DNA of 34,974 bases. Source: Rhodospirillales bacterium. Its GTDB lineage: Bacteria > Pseudomonadota > Alphaproteobacteria > Reyranellales > Reyranellaceae. The notes beneath the pieces were generated by a model, which worked only from the letters and a program-made list of their open reading frames with translations, did no database searches and was not told where the DNA came from. Every line of letters begins with the position of its first letter. Within the stretch, counting starts at the first letter, position 1. Where the stretch lies: NCBI GenBank assembly GCA_947469635.1, contig CANIRG010000011.1:1-34974 (forward strand). The letters are read 5' to 3'. Shown in pieces: positions 9,193-28,127 of this stretch. The position numbers were made by a program, and so were the translations under genes.

Positions 9193-9669
9193 ATGGACAT
9201 AGCGTTCACGGTGAATGGCAAGCAGCACCTGGTCGGCGCGGCCGAGACCGTGTCGCTGCTCGAGGTGTTGCGCAATCACCTCGGCCTCATGGGCACGCGC
9301 TACGGCTGCGGGCTCGAACAGTGCGGCTGCTGCATGGTGCTGGTCGACGGCCAGCCCGCCTATTCCTGCACCCGCGAGGTCGGCACGGTTGCCGGCTGTG
9401 ACGTTACCACCATCGAGGGGCTCGGCACCGCCGCCAAGCCGCATCCGCTGCAGCGCGCGTTCCTCGACGAGCAGGCCGGCCAGTGCGGCTATTGCCTGTC
9501 GGGAATCCTGATCTCGGCCAAGGCGCTGCTCGACCGCAATCCCAACCCGAGCCGTGCCGACATCGTCACGGCGCTCGACAAGCATCTCTGTCGCTGCGGC
9601 GCTCACCAGCGCATCCTGAACGCCGTGCAGCGCGCCGCCGCCAGCCTGCGGGAAGGGAGCCCGGCATGA
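9193..9669 (+). CDS. (2Fe-2S)-binding subunit of a xanthine dehydrogenase-family hydroxylase (IorA/CoxS-like)
   Basis: ATG at 9193; [20 protein letters not shown]...SCTREVG and [18 protein letters not shown]...[10 protein letters not shown] cysteine motifs of both [2Fe-2S] clusters. Confidence 0.92.
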
Positions 9670-11789
9670 CCGCGCCTGCCTTGCCCGCCAGCCTGATCGA
9701 GAACCCACGCCTCGACCGCTGGATCGCCTTCCAGCCCGACCTCACCGTCCGCATCGCCACCGGCAAGATCGAGATGGGCCAGGGCATCGTCACCGCCATC
9801 GGCCAGATCGCCGCGGACGAGCTCGACATTCCGTTCGCCCGCGTCGCCGTCCTCTCCGGCGATACCACCCATGGGCCCGACGAGGTCTATACGACCTCGT
9901 CGCTGTCGGTCGACGTGTCCGGCGGCTCGGTGCGGCTGGTCTGTGCGGAGGTCCGCGCCAAGGCACTGGACCGCGCCGCCCTTCGCCTCAATTGCAGCCG
10001 CGACGAGCTCACCGTGGCCGACGGAAAGTTCGTGCAGAACGGCGTCGTGACCGACCAGGACTACTGGACCGTGGCCGGCGAGATCGACCTCACGCAGGCC
10101 GTGACCGGCACGTCACCCGTCAAGCTGCGCGCGGCTTACAGCGTGGTCGGCCAGAGCGTGCCGCGCGTCGACCTGCCCGGGAAGGTGAGCGGCGCCGCCG
10201 CCTATGTGCACGATGTCCTGCCGGCGGGCGTTCTCCATGCGCGCACCTTGCGCCAGCCCAATCGCGGTGCGGTGCTCGCGTCCCTCGACGAGGCCGCAAT
10301 CCGTCACGCCGCCAGGGGCGAGCTGCAGATCGTTCGCGAGGCCAACTTCGTGGCCTTCGTCAGTCCCGTCGAGAGCGTGGCGCAGGCCGCCGCCGTTGCG
10401 GCCCCTCTCCATGCCAGATGGGACAATGTCCGCCAGTTGATACCCGAGCAGCAGGAAGCCGCCTGGCTGAAGGGCCAGCCGAGCGACGACCGACGCGTCG
10501 GCGCCTGGCCTGCGCCGACCACGCCGCCGAAGAACCTCGTGCGGGCGACCTTCTCCCGTCCCTACATCGCCCATGCCTCGATGGGGCCGTCCTGCGCCTT
10601 GGCCGAGTTCCGCGACGGCCATCTCACCGTGCGCTCGCACGGCCAGGGCATGCATCCGTTGCGCCAGAACCTCGCGGCGGCGCTCAAGCTGCCGATCGAA
10701 TCGATCACCGCGCAGCATCTGCACGGTGCCGGCTGCTACGGCCACAACGGCGCCGACGATGCCGCCCTCGACGCAGCACTGGTCGCATTGCGCCTGCCCG
10801 GCAAGTGCATCCGCCTGCAATGGCGGCGCGAGGAGGAATTCGGCTTCGAGCCGGTCGGGCCCGCCATGCTGGTGACGCTGCACGTCGATCTCGACGAACG
10901 GGGCCGCCCCGCCGACTGGACAACGGAGATTTGGAGCCCCACCCATGTCCAGCGGCCGGGCAACGGCACCGGCTTCCTGCTGGCGTCGGAGGCCATGGCT
11001 AATCCGCCGCCCGAGGTTGCACCCTTCGATCCGACGGAGCAGCGCGGCGGTGGCGGTACGCGCAACGCATTGCCGATCTATGACGTGCCGGCGCATCGCA
11101 TCCTGCACCATCTGGTGGTGCGCCCGCCCGTCCGCACCTCGGCGCTGCGCGGGCTCGGCGCCTTGCCCAACGTCTATGCCATCGAATCGCTGATCGACGA
11201 CCTCGCCGCGCGCGTCGGCGAGGATCCCGTGGCCTATCGGCTCTCAATCCTGTCCGAGCCGCGGGCGCGGCGGTTGGTCGAGCTGGTCGCCGAGCGTTCC
11301 GGCTGGGCCTCGCGTGGACCGTCCGGCACCGGCACGGGGCTGGGCATCGGCTTCGCTCGCTACAAGAACCGCGCGGCCTATGCCGCCGTCGTGGCGGCCG
11401 TCACCGTGCAGGAGACGGTCAAGGTCGATCGCGTGTGGTGCGTGGCCGACGCCGGGCTGGTGGTCAATCCCGACGGCGCGCGCAACCAGCTCGAAGGCGG
11501 CATCGTCCAGGCGGTGAGCTGGACGCTGAAGGAGCAGGTACGGCTCGACGAGCACGGCATCGCCTCACTCGACTGGGACAGCTATCCGATCCTGAGGTTC
11601 AGCGAAGTTCCCGAGATGCGCGTGGAGTTCGTCGAGCCGGGCAGCAATCCCTCGCTCGGCGTCGGCGAATGCACCGTGGGTCCCACGGCGGCAGCCATCG
11701 CCAATGCCGTCAACCATGCGCTCGGCGTCCGCATCAACGACATGCCGCTCACGCGCGACCGAATCATGGCGGCGTTGCTGAAGGTATGA
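9666..11789 (+). CDS. Molybdopterin-binding large subunit, xanthine dehydrogenase family (IorB-like)
   Basis: ATGA overlap with the small subunit; KIEMGQGIVTAIGQIAADEL, SGDTTHGPDEVYTTSSLSVDVSGG, C-terminal GVGECTVGPTAAAIANAVNHALG with the active-site Glu pattern. Confidence 0.92.
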   Translation: MTAPALPASLIENPRLDRWIAFQPDLTVRIATGKIEMGQGIVTAIGQIAADELDIPFARVAVLSGDTTHGPDEVYTTSSLSVDVSGGSVRLVCAEVRAKALDRAALRLNCSRDELTVADGKFVQNGVVTDQDYWTVAGEIDLTQAVTGTSPVKLRAAYSVVGQSVPRVDLPGKVSGAAAYVHDVLPAGVLHARTLRQPNRGAVLASLDEAAIRHAARGELQIVREANFVAFVSPVESVAQAAAVAAPLHARWDNVRQLIPEQQEAAWLKGQPSDDRRVGAWPAPTTPPKNLVRATFSRPYIAHASMGPSCALAEFRDGHLTVRSHGQGMHPLRQNLAAALKLPIESITAQHLHGAGCYGHNGADDAALDAALVALRLPGKCIRLQWRREEEFGFEPVGPAMLVTLHVDLDERGRPADWTTEIWSPTHVQRPGNGTGFLLASEAMANPPPEVAPFDPTEQRGGGGTRNALPIYDVPAHRILHHLVVRPPVRTSALRGLGALPNVYAIESLIDDLAARVGEDPVAYRLSILSEPRARRLVELVAERSGWASRGPSGTGTGLGIGFARYKNRAAYAAVVAAVTVQETVKVDRVWCVADAGLVVNPDGARNQLEGGIVQAVSWTLKEQVRLDEHGIASLDWDSYPILRFSEVPEMRVEFVEPGSNPSLGVGECTVGPTAAAIANAVNHALGVRINDMPLTRDRIMAALLKV

Positions 11790-11900
11790 CCTCACCCTGA
11801 GGAGCGCCCGAAGGGCGCGTCTCGAAGGGTCGGCCATAGGCACCATCTGTGGGGCCCATGCTTCGAGACGCCACGCTTTGCGTGGCTCCTCAGCATGAGG
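11790..11900. repeat. Intergenic cloverleaf-like palindromic element, family B copy 1
   Basis: Outer arms CCTCACCCTGAGGAGC (11790-11805) / GCTCCTCAGCATGAGG (11885-11900); side arm GCGCCC-GAA-GGGCGC (11804-11818); central stem GCGTCTCGAAG (11817-11827) / CTTCGAGACGC (11861-11871); side arm GCCACG-CTTTG-CGTGGC (11870-11886). Second copy at 26753-26861. Confidence 0.9.
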
Positions 11901-12498
11901 TTGTGCTGGCTCGCCTGAAAATCACAGACAGGTTGTTCGCGGGCATTGCTACCACGTGCGGCGTGCCGAAGCCGTGCTCCCGCGCGAGCGCGATCACTGC
12001 CTCCAGGTCGCGCACGCCCCAGGCGGGGTTGCGGTGGCGCAGGTCGCGGTCGAAGTCGGCGTTGCTGGCGGAGGTCGGGGCGCCGTTGCGGTGATACGGG
12101 CCGTAGAGGAACAGCAGCCCGCCGACACGCAGCAGCCGGGCCGCGCCGCGCATCAGGCCGATGGCCGACTCCCACGGCGAGATGTGGATCATGTTGATGC
12201 AGACCACGGCGTCCGCCGAAGCGATCGGCCAGCTCGCGGCCGACGCATCGAGCGCCAGCGCCGGGCGGACATTGGCGAGAGCTTCGGTGCTCGCCCAATC
12301 GTCGATGCTGGCGCGCGCCACCTCGTCGGGATCGCTGGGCTGGAAGGTGAGCTGCGGTAGCCCCGCTGCAAAAAATACGATGTGCTCGCCCGAGCCGCTG
12401 GCAATCTCCAGCACCAGGCCTTGCGCCGGCAGATGCGGCGCCAGCACATCGAGGATAGGCTGGCGGTTGCGCGCGACAGCCGGCGCCCGCCGCCTCAC
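11890..12498 (-). CDS. DUF938 family protein (SAM-dependent methyltransferase-like)
   Basis: PAVARNRQPILDVLAPHLPAQGLVLEIASGSGEHIVFFAAGLPQLTFQPSDPD...NMIHISPWES is the DUF938 pattern; likely GTG start at 12498; 3' end overlaps the repeat by 11 bp. Confidence 0.82.
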   Translation of the reverse strand: MRRRAPAVARNRQPILDVLAPHLPAQGLVLEIASGSGEHIVFFAAGLPQLTFQPSDPDEVARASIDDWASTEALANVRPALALDASAASWPIASADAVVCINMIHISPWESAIGLMRGAARLLRVGGLLFLYGPYHRNGAPTSASNADFDRDLRHRNPAWGVRDLEAVIALAREHGFGTPHVVAMPANNLSVIFRRASTTSC

Positions 12499-12511
12499 GT
12501 ATAAATTTCCA

Positions 12512-13396
12512 TCAGGCCGCCAGCTGCGCGACGGTCGGGCCGTCACCGGCCAGCGTCGTGCGGCGCATGTCGCGCGGCTCATGCGCAGGGAAGGGCCGTG
12601 CGCGATGCATGGTCTGGCGGTTGTCCCACATCACCAGATCGTCGACCCGCCACTTGTGGGCGTAGACGAACTCACGCTGGGTGGCGTGCTCGATCAGGTC
12701 GCGCAGGTAGCCGCGCGCCTCGGGCATCGGCCAACCGACGATCTCGCCGGCATGGGACGACAGGTACAGCGACTTGCGGCCGGTCACGGGATGGACGCGG
12801 ACCATGCACTGGCGCACCGGCTTGAAGCGCTGGCGCTCCTCGTCGGTGAAGTCGCTGAAGCCGATGAGCTGGCGCGAGAACATCTGCGAGTGCTCGCACA
12901 CCATGCCCTCGACCTCGGCCTTGGTCTCGTCGTCGAGGGCATCGTAGGCCGCGCGCATGTCGGCGAACTGCGTGTTGCCGCCCTTCGACGGGATGCTGAT
13001 CGCGTGCAGCAGCGAATACTTGGCCGGCGTCGTCTTGAACGAGCTGTCGGAGTGCCACAGCCGGTTGCCGATGGCGAACAGCCGGCGGCGGTCCTCGCGG
13101 GCAAACGGCTTGTCGTTCTTGTCGAGATTGGAGACGTCGGCGAAGGTCGTGGGCAGGCGCGCCTCGGTCTCGGAGCGCAGGCTGGTGCCGATGGCGTGCT
13201 CGATGTCGCCCAGGCTCTGGGTGAAGGCGAGCTGCTGGGCGTCGGTGATCCTCTGGTCGTGGAACACCAGCACGGCATATCTGTCCATGCCGGCATGGAT
13301 CGCCGCCACCTCATCGCGCGTGAGGGGCTTGCGCATGTCGATGCCGTCGACCTCGCCCGCGAAGCAGGGTCCGACCTGGCGGATGGTGACTGTCAT
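12512..13396 (-). CDS. TauD/TfdA family Fe(II)/2-oxoglutarate dioxygenase
   Basis: LWHSDSSFKTTPAKYSLLHAISIPSKGGNTQFADMRAAYDAL (HxD) and LVMWDNRQTMHRARPFPAHEPRDMRRTTLAGD (distal His, Arg). Confidence 0.92.
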   Translation of the reverse strand: MTVTIRQVGPCFAGEVDGIDMRKPLTRDEVAAIHAGMDRYAVLVFHDQRITDAQQLAFTQSLGDIEHAIGTSLRSETEARLPTTFADVSNLDKNDKPFAREDRRRLFAIGNRLWHSDSSFKTTPAKYSLLHAISIPSKGGNTQFADMRAAYDALDDETKAEVEGMVCEHSQMFSRQLIGFSDFTDEERQRFKPVRQCMVRVHPVTGRKSLYLSSHAGEIVGWPMPEARGYLRDLIEHATQREFVYAHKWRVDDLVMWDNRQTMHRARPFPAHEPRDMRRTTLAGDGPTVAQLAA

Positions 13397-24694: not shown

Positions 24695-25569
24695 TTCGGC
24701 CGGCGCGTCCATTGCACGATGCGATAGACGCCCTCGATGTTGAGCTGGCTCATCGCCTCGAAGCCACCCCAGTCCTTGTACTTGGACAGGTCGACCAGCT
24801 TCTTGGTCTCCTCCAGCGTCTTGCCGGCGCGGACGGCGGCCATCACCTGGGCGCGCAAATCCTCGAGGTAGCCGCGGAAGGCCACGACGTCGGCCTTGGT
24901 GCCAAGGGCGCCGTGACCAGGCGCCAGGATGTCGAACTCCATCGCTTCGACCCGGCGCAGGGACTCGATCCATTCGTCGAGATAGGCGTCGGGGAAGTCG
25001 CGGAAGGCGACGCCCTTCACCGGCATGAAGTCGACCGCGAAGATCAGTCTCTCCTTGGGGAAGCGCAGCACCACCGAATTGTTGGAATGGTTGCGCCCGA
25101 CCCAATGCAGCTCGGCGACGGTGCCGCCTAATTCAATCGTAGCCTTCTCCGAGAAGGTGATCTGCGGCGCCGGCGTCGGCCGCTTCTCGCCGATGATCGG
25201 CTCCTTGGCATTCTCGTGCGCGACGAAGATCGCGTCGGTCCAGACCTCGCCGCCCGAAATATGGTCGGCATGGTCGTGGCTGTAGATCGCATATTTGATA
25301 GCGAGGTTCGGCCAGCGCTTCTTCAGCTCGTCCTTCAGCCAGGTCGCCGCGGCTGCGTTGATCGGATCGGTGGCGATGATGCCGGCCGGCGTCACGGCAA
25401 ATACCGAGTAGTGGGCGTTGTTGCGAAAGCGATAGACCTCACCCGCGATCTTGGTGATCTCACGGACGACGGGCGGTGGCGGCGTCGGAGCCTGCGCCAT
25501 CGCCGGCCCCATCAGCCCAGTCCCTGCCAGCCCGACGAGCATCGCCGCGGCGATCAGAAAACGTGTCAT
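24691..25569 (-). CDS. MBL-fold metallo-hydrolase with signal peptide
   Basis: MTRFLIAAAMLVGLAGTGLMGPAMAQ; HxHxDH motif in YSHDHADHISGGEVW; the track ORF extends upstream antisense/out of frame of BenE. Confidence 0.88.
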   Translation of the reverse strand: MTRFLIAAAMLVGLAGTGLMGPAMAQAPTPPPPVVREITKIAGEVYRFRNNAHYSVFAVTPAGIIATDPINAAAATWLKDELKKRWPNLAIKYAIYSHDHADHISGGEVWTDAIFVAHENAKEPIIGEKRPTPAPQITFSEKATIELGGTVAELHWVGRNHSNNSVVLRFPKERLIFAVDFMPVKGVAFRDFPDAYLDEWIESLRRVEAMEFDILAPGHGALGTKADVVAFRGYLEDLRAQVMAAVRAGKTLEETKKLVDLSKYKDWGGFEAMSQLNIEGVYRIVQWTRRPN

Positions 25570-26738
25570 CGAAGTCTCCCCTTTGCCTTGCTGTAGGCGC
25601 GCTCCAGGCCAAGGGTCATCAACCCGAAGCAGAGCCCCCAGAAGGCCGAGCCTACACCGAGCAGCGTCACGCCCGAAACGGTGACGGCGAGCGTGCCGGC
25701 GGCGGCGAGCCGGTCCTTGTCGGGGCCGAGCGCACTGCCGAGGGCTCCAGCCGTCGAGCCCAGCAGCGCCGTGCCGGCCACCGTCGCCAGCAGCGCCGGC
25801 GGCAGGGCGCCGAACAGGCCGACCAGGGAAGAGCCGAACAGCGCCATCAAGCCCCACCACAGTGCGTAGAAGGGTCCCGTCATCCAGCGCTTGGCCGGAT
25901 CGGCATGTGCCTCGGGGCCGGTGCAGAGCGCTGCGGAGATCGCCGCCAGGTTGGAGGTATGGGCGCCGAGGAAGGCCGTGCCGAGGGACGCCGCGCCGGT
26001 CACGGCGAGGATCGGCTGGGTCGGTGGGTGATAGCCCGAGGCCCGCAGCACGGCGAAACCCGGCAGGTTCTGCGACGCCATGGTGACGAGATAGAGCGGT
26101 ACGCCGAGCCCGACCAAGGTTGCCACATCCCATGCAGGAGCGGTCACCACGAGCGTCGAGATACCGAGCGGCGGGATCGGGTTCACCAGCCCCAACGCCA
26201 AGGCAAGAGCCGTCCCCGCCGCCAGCACGACGAGCGAGGCGAGTGCGGGCATGACCAGGCGCATCACCAGGAACAGCACGATCAGCGGCAGGACGAGCAA
26301 CGGCTGGTGCGGCACTTGATCGACCATCGCCACCACGAGCCGAAGCAGGATGCCGCCCAGCATGGCCGCTGCGATGCTGACCGGAATCCTCTCGATCAGC
26401 CGCGCGAGCGGACGCACCGCCGCGGTCAGCAGGATCAGCACCGCGGCCAGGACAAAGGCGCCGACGGCCGCCTCGAATCCCGGCACGCCCGACGTCGAGG
26501 CAATCAGCGCCGCGCCCGGCGTCGACCAGGCGGCAATGATCGGCATGCGGTAGCGCAGGCTGAGATAGAGCGCCGATACGGCAGTGGCGATGCCGAGGCC
26601 CGACACCCACGAGCTCGCCTGGTCGGGCGTGGCGCCGACGGCCTGCGTCGCCGCCAGCACGATCGGCAAGGCGCCGCCGACGCCCGCCACCGTCGCCACC
26701 AGCGCGGCCGTGGCGGCGGAGACGACTCCGGATTTCAC
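25566..26738 (-). CDS. Benzoate/H+ symporter (BenE-like) family transporter
   Basis: Multi-TM; YRMPIIAAWSTPGAALIAS, QNLPGFAVLRASGYHPPTQPILAVTGAASL. Probable GTG start at 26738 (VKSGVVSAATAAL); the track start at 26834 lies inside the family B repeat. Confidence 0.88.
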   Translation of the reverse strand: MKSGVVSAATAALVATVAGVGGALPIVLAATQAVGATPDQASSWVSGLGIATAVSALYLSLRYRMPIIAAWSTPGAALIASTSGVPGFEAAVGAFVLAAVLILLTAAVRPLARLIERIPVSIAAAMLGGILLRLVVAMVDQVPHQPLLVLPLIVLFLVMRLVMPALASLVVLAAGTALALALGLVNPIPPLGISTLVVTAPAWDVATLVGLGVPLYLVTMASQNLPGFAVLRASGYHPPTQPILAVTGAASLGTAFLGAHTSNLAAISAALCTGPEAHADPAKRWMTGPFYALWWGLMALFGSSLVGLFGALPPALLATVAGTALLGSTAGALGSALGPDKDRLAAAGTLAVTVSGVTLLGVGSAFWGLCFGLMTLGLERAYSKAKGRLR

Positions 26739-26752
26739 GCGACCGGGAGTGC

Positions 26753-26861
26753 CCTCACCCTGAGGAGCCGCGCGCAGCGTGGCGTCTCGAAGGGTGGGAC
26801 CCAGCCTTGGTGTGGCCCATGCTTCGAGACGCACGCCTGCGGCGTGCTCCTCAGCATGAGG
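26753..26861. repeat. Intergenic cloverleaf-like palindromic element, family B copy 2
   Basis: Outer arms CCTCACCCTGAGGAGC (26753-26768) / GCTCCTCAGCATGAGG (26846-26861); side arm GCCGCG-CGCAG-CGTGGC (26767-26783); central stem GCGTCTCGAAG (26782-26792) / CTTCGAGACGC (26822-26832); side arm GCACGCC-TGC-GGCGTGC (26831-26847). Confidence 0.9.
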
Positions 26862-26867
26862 TTGGGC

Positions 26868-28127
26868 TCACGCATTGGCCCGCTCGACCATCGCCTGCAG
26901 GAGGATCTGGCAGCCCGCGCCGATATCGACCTTGGTGGCGTCCTCGATCTCGTTGTGGCTGATGCCGTCCTTGCAGGGCACGAACACCATCGCCGTGGGC
27001 GCGACGCGCGACACGTAGCAGGCGTCGTGACCGGCGCCGCTCACGATATCCATGTGCGGATAGCCTGCCTGCTCGGCACCGCGGCGCACCGCCTCCACGA
27101 GCTCCTTGGCGAAGGGCGACGGCGGGAAATACCAGATCTGCTCGATCTTCACCTCGAGCCGATGACGCTTGGCGATGTCGGCCGCCGCCGCGCGTATCTC
27201 GGCGTCCATCCTGGTGAGCTCGCCATCATCGGGATGGCGGAAATCTAGTGTCATGAACAGGCGGCCGGGAATGGTGTTGCGCGACTGCGGCTGGCTCTCG
27301 ATCACGCCCACCGTCGAGCGTCCGTTGGGTCGATTGCCGATGCGCCGCGCCTCGACGATCAGCTCGGCGGCACCGACCAGCGCATCGCGCCGCCCTTCCA
27401 TCGGCGTGGTGCCGGCGTGGCTCTCCATCCCGGTCCAGTTGATCTCGTACCAGCGCTGGCCCTGCGCACCCGTGACGACGCCGATGGTCTTCTTCTCGCG
27501 CTCGAGGATCGGCCCCTGCTCGATATGCGCCTCGAAGAAGGCGCCGACCTTGCGGCCGCCGACCGGCTCCTTGCCGTCATAGCCGATCTTCTTCAGCGCC
27601 TCGGCAAAGGTCACGCCGTCGCGATCCTTGATCGACAGCGCATGGTCGAGCGTGAAGGCGCCGCCGAACACGCCCGAGGCCACCATGGCCGGCGCGAAGC
27701 GGCAGCCTTCCTCGTTGGTCCACACCGCCACCTCGATCGGTGCCTCGGTGACGTAGTTGGAATCGTGCAGCACGCGCAGCACCTCGAGACCCGCCATCAC
27801 GCCATAGGCGCCGTCGAACTTTCCGCCGGTGGGCTGGGTGTCGAGATGGCTGCCGGTCATCACCGGCGCCTTCGAAGGATCGCGCCCCTCGCGCCGGGCG
27901 AAGATGTTGCCGAGCCGGTCGACCTTGATCGTGGCGCCGGCTTCCTTGGCCCAGCGCACGAACAGGTCGCGGCCGATCCTGTCGAGATCGGTGAGGGCGA
28001 TGCGGCAGACGCCGCCCTTCTCCGTACCGCCAATCTCGGCCAGCTCCATCAGGCTCGACCACAGGCGATCCGAATCGATCCTGAGATTGCGGCGGTCGGC
28101 GGGGGTCATGGCGGGCTCCATTGTCAT
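26868..28127 (-). CDS. Zn-dependent hydantoinase/carbamoylase family amidase (N-carbamoyl-L-amino acid hydrolase/allantoate amidohydrolase-like)
   Basis: MTGSHLDTQPTGGKFDGAYGVMAGLEVLR, VWTNEEGCRFAPAMVASGVF, EAHIEQGPILE, ESHAGTTPMEGRRDAL, SGAGHDACYVSRVAPTAMVFVPCKDGISHNEIE. Confidence 0.93.
   Translation of the reverse strand: MTMEPAMTPADRRNLRIDSDRLWSSLMELAEIGGTEKGGVCRIALTDLDRIGRDLFVRWAKEAGATIKVDRLGNIFARREGRDPSKAPVMTGSHLDTQPTGGKFDGAYGVMAGLEVLRVLHDSNYVTEAPIEVAVWTNEEGCRFAPAMVASGVFGGAFTLDHALSIKDRDGVTFAEALKKIGYDGKEPVGGRKVGAFFEAHIEQGPILEREKKTIGVVTGAQGQRWYEINWTGMESHAGTTPMEGRRDALVGAAELIVEARRIGNRPNGRSTVGVIESQPQSRNTIPGRLFMTLDFRHPDDGELTRMDAEIRAAAADIAKRHRLEVKIEQIWYFPPSPFAKELVEAVRRGAEQAGYPHMDIVSGAGHDACYVSRVAPTAMVFVPCKDGISHNEIEDATKVDIGAGCQILLQAMVERANA

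Follow-up and report, generated by a model that had tools for sequence, protein, structure and literature searches.

The 34,974-nt stretch of DNA analysed here, which we call the window, belongs to an 88% complete draft genome of the genus Reyranella. Two elements in it had been described in the initial annotation as cloverleaf-like repeats whose side arms differ in sequence and still pair. What are these elements, what keeps their arms complementary, and which enzyme might carry them? Both copies are present at 11790-11900 and 26753-26861, with the arms as first given, and the features that concern them are as follows.

9483..11789, plus strand: molybdopterin-binding (xanthine-dehydrogenase-like) gene, its TGA stop (11787-11789) directly abutting copy 1
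11790..11900, no strand: copy 1, a head-to-head dimer of 111 nt
11790..11831, plus strand: left monomer of copy 1, type CC/GG, reading CCTCA-CC-CTGAGGAGC, the arm, then GTCTCGAAG-GG
11804-11818, plus strand: arm hairpin of this left monomer, GCGCCC-GAA-GGGCGC
11832..11856, no strand: inter-monomer spacer of copy 1, equal to the conserved tail/spacer segment of head-to-head dimers
11857..11900, minus strand: right monomer of copy 1, type TG/CA, with arm GCCACGC-AAA-GCGTGGC in the minus-strand reading
11890..12582, minus strand: convergent DUF938 methyltransferase-like gene, its stop codon (11890-11892) inside the right monomer of copy 1
25566-26834: ORF of the BenE transporter gene on the other side of copy 2, its true start probably near 26740
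26753..26861, no strand: copy 2, a head-to-head dimer of 109 nt
26753..26796, plus strand: left monomer of copy 2, type CC/GG
26818..26861, minus strand: right monomer of copy 2, type TG/CA
26868..28127, minus strand: M20 peptidase-like gene, its end just beside copy 2

A family of paired hairpins

The basic unit of this family is a hairpin monomer of about 44 nt, and the window copies are head-to-head pairs of it. A pattern search of the 6.3-Mb draft genome for exact half-elements (CCTCANNCTGAGGAGC, 0 to 30 nt of any sequence, GTCTCGAAG) returned 64 forward and 72 reverse matches, that is at least 136, while the same pattern read backwards returned none. Frame-matched copies occur in 35 of the 37 genomes of the genus, where they range from 0 to 387 per genome, and, at the level of the class, in 43 of 386 genomes. 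In 0.83 Mb of contigs we counted 176 monomers, which include 56 head-to-head dimers, their spacers 20-27 nt long, and 20 tail-to-tail pairs; head-to-tail pairs are absent among them. The monomer consensus is A-CCTCA-NN-CTGAGGAGC-arm-GTCTCGAAG-N'N'-TG-GGCAAC, the A at -1, before the CCTCA outer end, being present in 88% of monomers. A lone monomer folds into a single long hairpin with a GA bulge, and the left monomer of copy 1 on its own folds at -15.5 kcal/mol as DNA (z -4.2).

Within each half, the two nucleotides NN (CCTCA-NN-CTGAGG) are Watson-Crick complementary to N'N' (GTCTCGAAG-N'N'-TG) in 166 of the 176 monomers, with CC/GG (75), TC/GA (52) and TG/CA (39) as the types. The same NN appears in both halves of only 9 of the 56 dimers, against 19.6 +/- 3.3 expected, and none of 5000 permutations reaches this value. 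Because the two halves match each other less than chance would have it, the long outer stem is routinely interrupted. The mismatch of CC opposite CA that had been pointed out in the outer stem is thus present, but it is not a product of decay: the bases pair inside their own half, copy 1 being a CC half that faces a TG half.

Some further arrangements were seen in passing. Tail-to-tail pairs, as at L001:753-854 and 17 similar places, have linkers of 12-37 nt with variable sequence. A monomer with the arm GAGCGCAGCGAGC recurs at three loci (L063, L086 and L100) in a longer common context, with AACGCTTCTTCCAAAGACAA before the monomer and GACCACGGGCAAGGTCGTGG after it, which suggests a larger repeated unit. 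Reyranella-like repeats are also found in contigs titled Enhydrobacter aerosaccus or Asaia bogorensis (L230, L235, L236, L244), which may be misnamed MAGs. The dimer gave no blastn match on plasmids or phages, in a search whose sensitivity is limited by the variable arms.

Pairing in the side arms

The annotated observation that the side arms differ yet remain paired extends to the whole family: there are 92 distinct arm sequences in 164 monomers, and 472 of their 500 pairs are Watson-Crick, with another 12 being G-T. The proposed covariation check gave a strong signal as well. In the three main arm-length classes, 32/32, 193/205 and 232/246 cells are Watson-Crick (457/483 in total), while shuffled arms of the same classes give means of 21.5, 124 and 140 and maxima of 28, 141 and 160, and in none of the classes was the observed count reached in 1000 shuffles. 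Three quarters of the arm loops (75%) are GNA, a loop that is especially stable in DNA hairpins. The sole common arm to break Watson-Crick pairing, GCGAGC-GCA-GCGAGC, does so via tandem G-A mismatches in a CGAG context, where such mismatches form stable sheared pairs. Moreover, in ten comparisons of orthologous sites the arms almost always differ and the pairing is kept; re-insertion at the same site may also account for these differences.

That pairing in the side arms is kept by selection, or by a process that preserves pairing, is strongly supported. To this extent the earlier reading of selection on structure holds; the four-way junction named with it as the selected fold is not favoured, as it is contradicted by the within-half covariation and by the avoidance of matching halves. 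The complementarity could also come from a mutational process, template switching between the arms of a quasi-palindrome, and not from functional selection. Under such a process one would expect what is seen, namely arms altered by an entire palindrome or an entire base pair at a time, and orthologous sites at which nearly all arms differ and pair. It leaves unexplained why the frame is invariant, why GNA loops predominate, why the halves of a dimer avoid matching, and how the nuclease link described below arises. We regard template switching as a possible though doubtful source of the pairing; it is compatible with our main explanation, and both can act together.

GIY-YIG genes between inverted repeats

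The initial annotation had suggested looking for a RAYT. The genome, an 88% complete draft, contains no PF01797 match. Weak Y1_Tnp genes (L170-L199) are present in about half of the genomes of the genus, and inverted repeats lie at the ends of 11 of 26 Y1 loci, which served as a positive control; none of these repeats belongs to family B, as we call the family of the window, and no Y1_Tnp locus of the relatives carries it. Those genes would be the candidates if a RAYT-type Y1 transposase moved the repeats in trans, as for the GTAG REPs. However, a Y1 gene was found neither in our genome nor in near-complete genomes holding 58-107 copies (G015, G025 and G031, 99% complete; G002, 97%; G008, 98%), and we consider this route very improbable.

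A different gene keeps company with the repeats. The link was first seen through a repeat located directly 5' of an ORF starting MNDEPGAHIYMLRCAHGSYYIG. By PF01541 matches the genome has four GIY-YIG genes, UvrC and three small ones, and each of the small ones lies between inverted repeats, with a different family for each. On another contig (G000:C55) the window family stands on both sides of a gene for a GIY-YIG endonuclease of 98 aa. There the left monomer, tail TGGGCAAC included, reaches to just short of the ATG, and the right monomer, in inverted orientation, begins about 15 nt past the stop codon. The other two small genes (L346:1439-1842 and L347:1397-1785) lie between repeats of the families GTCATCCCGACCGG...GGAGGGACCT and GTCATCCTGAGCG...GAAGGATCTC.

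The association between GIY-YIG genes and repeats is strong. Using exact gene ends, a flanking inverted-repeat score of at least 20 is reached by 49 of 71 small GIY-YIG genes of the genus, compared with 4/576 and 7/412 for other genes and 0/165 for small genes of other kinds on repeat-bearing contigs. Similarly, a single repeat family lies inverted on both sides of 78 of 92 small GIY-YIG genes versus 8 of 945 other genes (Fisher 7.7e-93), a count that is partly circular because the patterns of families A, C, D and E were themselves derived from these loci; family B, defined beforehand from the window, and the inverted-repeat score are free of this circularity. When the control was rerun, the 11 flanked genes among 1119 comprised two GIY-YIG genes, one gene antisense to a GIY-YIG gene and eight apparently unrelated ones. 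These contrasts bear on the idea that the repeats act at the RNA level, as terminators or as stabilisers of mRNA selected on folded transcripts, with the nuclease link incidental. Such a role would fit their stable RNA folds and the stop codons that abut or sit inside copy 1, but a nuclease association so far above controls argues against it, as do the loop bias, the lack of a matching curated family in Rfam and the lack of a clear preference for gene ends in a check with crude ORF calls. We therefore hold an RNA role to be quite unlikely.

The gene-bearing and gene-less forms share more than their hairpins, as the inner tail TGGGCAACAGGCAAGGTG of one gene-bearing copy (L490) matches the spacers of dimers. 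In the gene-bearing elements of some genomes (L490, L491, L477, L497) we also observed an extra conserved segment, CCGGAAATGAATTGAATCGATTCAAACACTTA, outside the repeat. Empty sites were recovered at two places (L258 vs L275; L208 vs L204 and L220), and it is these presence/absence differences between species, at two sites, that suggest movement of the repeats; the junctions are highly diverged and resolve no target-site duplication. For copy 1, the 29 loci compared included no syntenic relative.

The repeat-flanked protein is a single-domain GIY-YIG protein that matches the UPF0213 structures 1ywl and 1zg2, and its GIY-YIG, Arg and Glu positions are conserved in nearly all aligned members. A weak structural match was obtained with Slx1 (E 0.5; model confidence 69), a nuclease that acts on branched DNA and belongs to the GIY-YIG superfamily. 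Searches of PADLOC, NCBIfam and PHROGs with the nuclease gave nothing specific.

Nuclease clades and repeat families correspond one to one. In a tree of 89 proteins, which is limited by the shortness of the sequences and by long branches in places, the 24 proteins with family B on both sides all group together as a clade (support 93/92; 94% of bootstrap trees; mean of 21.4 changes when shuffled), and the labels of all repeat families require 19 changes versus 53.6 when shuffled. This agreement would also arise from linkage alone if the gene and its ends were inherited together. In addition, genomes with a clade-B gene have a median of 70.5 family-B repeats versus 13 in those without (p = 0.0014), a comparison that in some genomes covers a subset of the GIY-YIG loci, and a p value that ignores phylogeny. 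Some near-complete genomes are rich in repeats without a clade-B GIY-YIG gene, such as G015, with 93 copies and UvrC only.

Repeats that persist without the gene are what one would expect if the gene were the invader, a homing-type endonuclease gene inserting into the REP-dimer spacers that it cleaves, with the repeats spreading by other means. The gene does occupy exactly the position of the dimer spacer, and GIY-YIG enzymes are classical homing endonucleases (PMC1564403). Yet a distinct nuclease clade goes with every repeat family, genomes that have the gene carry more repeats, the proteins are of the single-domain UPF0213 type, and no separate mobiliser was found, all of which makes an invading gene unlikely.

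We consider it probable that the window elements are non-autonomous and REP-like, and that their cognate enzyme, which would mobilise them, is a GIY-YIG nuclease of the UPF0213 type. The cloverleaf would then be a head-to-head REP-like dimer, the gene-less form, derived by gene loss, of a small element in which inverted hairpins surround a GIY-YIG gene. Most likely the nuclease would recognise the repeat of its own family in folded form, as a hairpin or as extruded DNA, and by cutting or nicking it would drive the copying of dimers into new intergenic sites, in analogy to the presumed role of RAYTs for the GTAG REPs. Recognition of folded DNA by the nuclease would account for a fixed frame combined with arms that can vary freely provided that their pairing is maintained.

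REP superfamilies and the reach of the association

A short palindrome with many copies, mostly in head-to-head pairs and in intergenic DNA, the window family is a REP in the broad sense. With the REP/BIME/REPIN elements and RAYTs of the GTAG superfamily it shares short, high-copy intergenic palindromes, head-to-head dimers, conserved spacers, one associated enzyme gene with the repeat on both sides, and cognate pairs of enzyme and repeat. Unlike the GTAG REPs, it has neither the GTAG tag (the outer end is A-CCTCA) nor a RAYT, and its enzyme partner belongs to the GIY-YIG nucleases. The CGTC REPs (PMC3733652) are likewise alphaproteobacterial, mostly head-to-head, commonly heterodimeric in some families and without a RAYT, and they too flank GIY-YIG genes, in other genera. 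The window family differs from them in its longer stem, GA bulge and variable arm, and in having no CGTC-ATYCC stem and no CCA tail. We examined whether it is itself a CGTC REP, as defined by a CGTC tag, an 8-9 bp stem from AT, a 4-5 nt loop and a CCA tail, and rejected this, as the monomer consensus has neither the tag position nor the tail. Like MITEs, it includes gene-less inverted-repeat elements whose ends are common to a gene-bearing element (the REP-GIY-YIG-REP loci), but there is no DDE or HUH transposase and no target-site duplication was resolved. The encoded nuclease has the fold and sequence family of the UPF0213/YhbQ/YazA proteins (PDB 1ywl, 1zg2), many of which, elsewhere, lack flanking repeats. 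Br-REP1 and Br-REP2 of Bradyrhizobium (PMC5082802) are also alphaproteobacterial intergenic palindromic repeats, with consensus sequences unrelated to ours.

The association reaches beyond Reyranella. In a survey of the class, a score of at least 20 was obtained at 23 of 60 GIY-YIG loci, against 0 of 20 UvrC loci (maximum 13) and 5 of 600 with random geometry; at exact gene ends, it was obtained for 27 of 86 GIY-YIG genes from alphaproteobacterial genera outside Reyranella. REPs of the CGTC...CCA type enclose 16 of these 86 genes and 0 of 20 UvrC genes, and such loci lie in several genera (L372, L360, L400, L352, L393 and others). The flanking CGTC REPs are multi-copy in the same genomes: in G051, REPs at 1556766 (plus) and 1557094 (minus) enclose the GIY-YIG gene 1556809-1557030, and there are 29 copies in all. 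Related GIY-YIG genes of Methylobacterium (NZ_LR743510.1, NZ_AP014705.1) adjoin CCTCATCCTGAGGTG repeats. Many GIY-YIG genes outside the genus have no flanking repeats, and outside Alphaproteobacteria these were found at only 2 of 19 GIY-YIG loci.

The CGTC superfamily, typical of Alphaproteobacteria, has been published as lacking a dedicated transposase (Di Nocera 2013, PMC3733652), and a search of openly accessible papers yielded none that connects GIY-YIG with REPs. A REP-like dimer is ordinary; its GIY-YIG company is not, and the flanking pattern points to an unreported enzyme that could copy or move such repeats. It is tempting to go further, and we lean slightly towards single-domain GIY-YIG nucleases being the dedicated mobilisers of bacterial REPs across an entire superfamily, the reportedly transposase-less CGTC REPs among them.

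If true, this would define a class of mobile elements in which a structure-recognising GIY-YIG enzyme takes the role that the HUH transposase has for the GTAG REPs, and thus a second, unrelated type of enzyme for REP mobilisation. It would also give the UPF0213 proteins a biological substrate that can be assayed. REPs are among the commonest repeats of bacterial genomes, and a cognate nuclease, usually annotated merely as a 'GIY-YIG family protein', would make their origin and spread directly testable.
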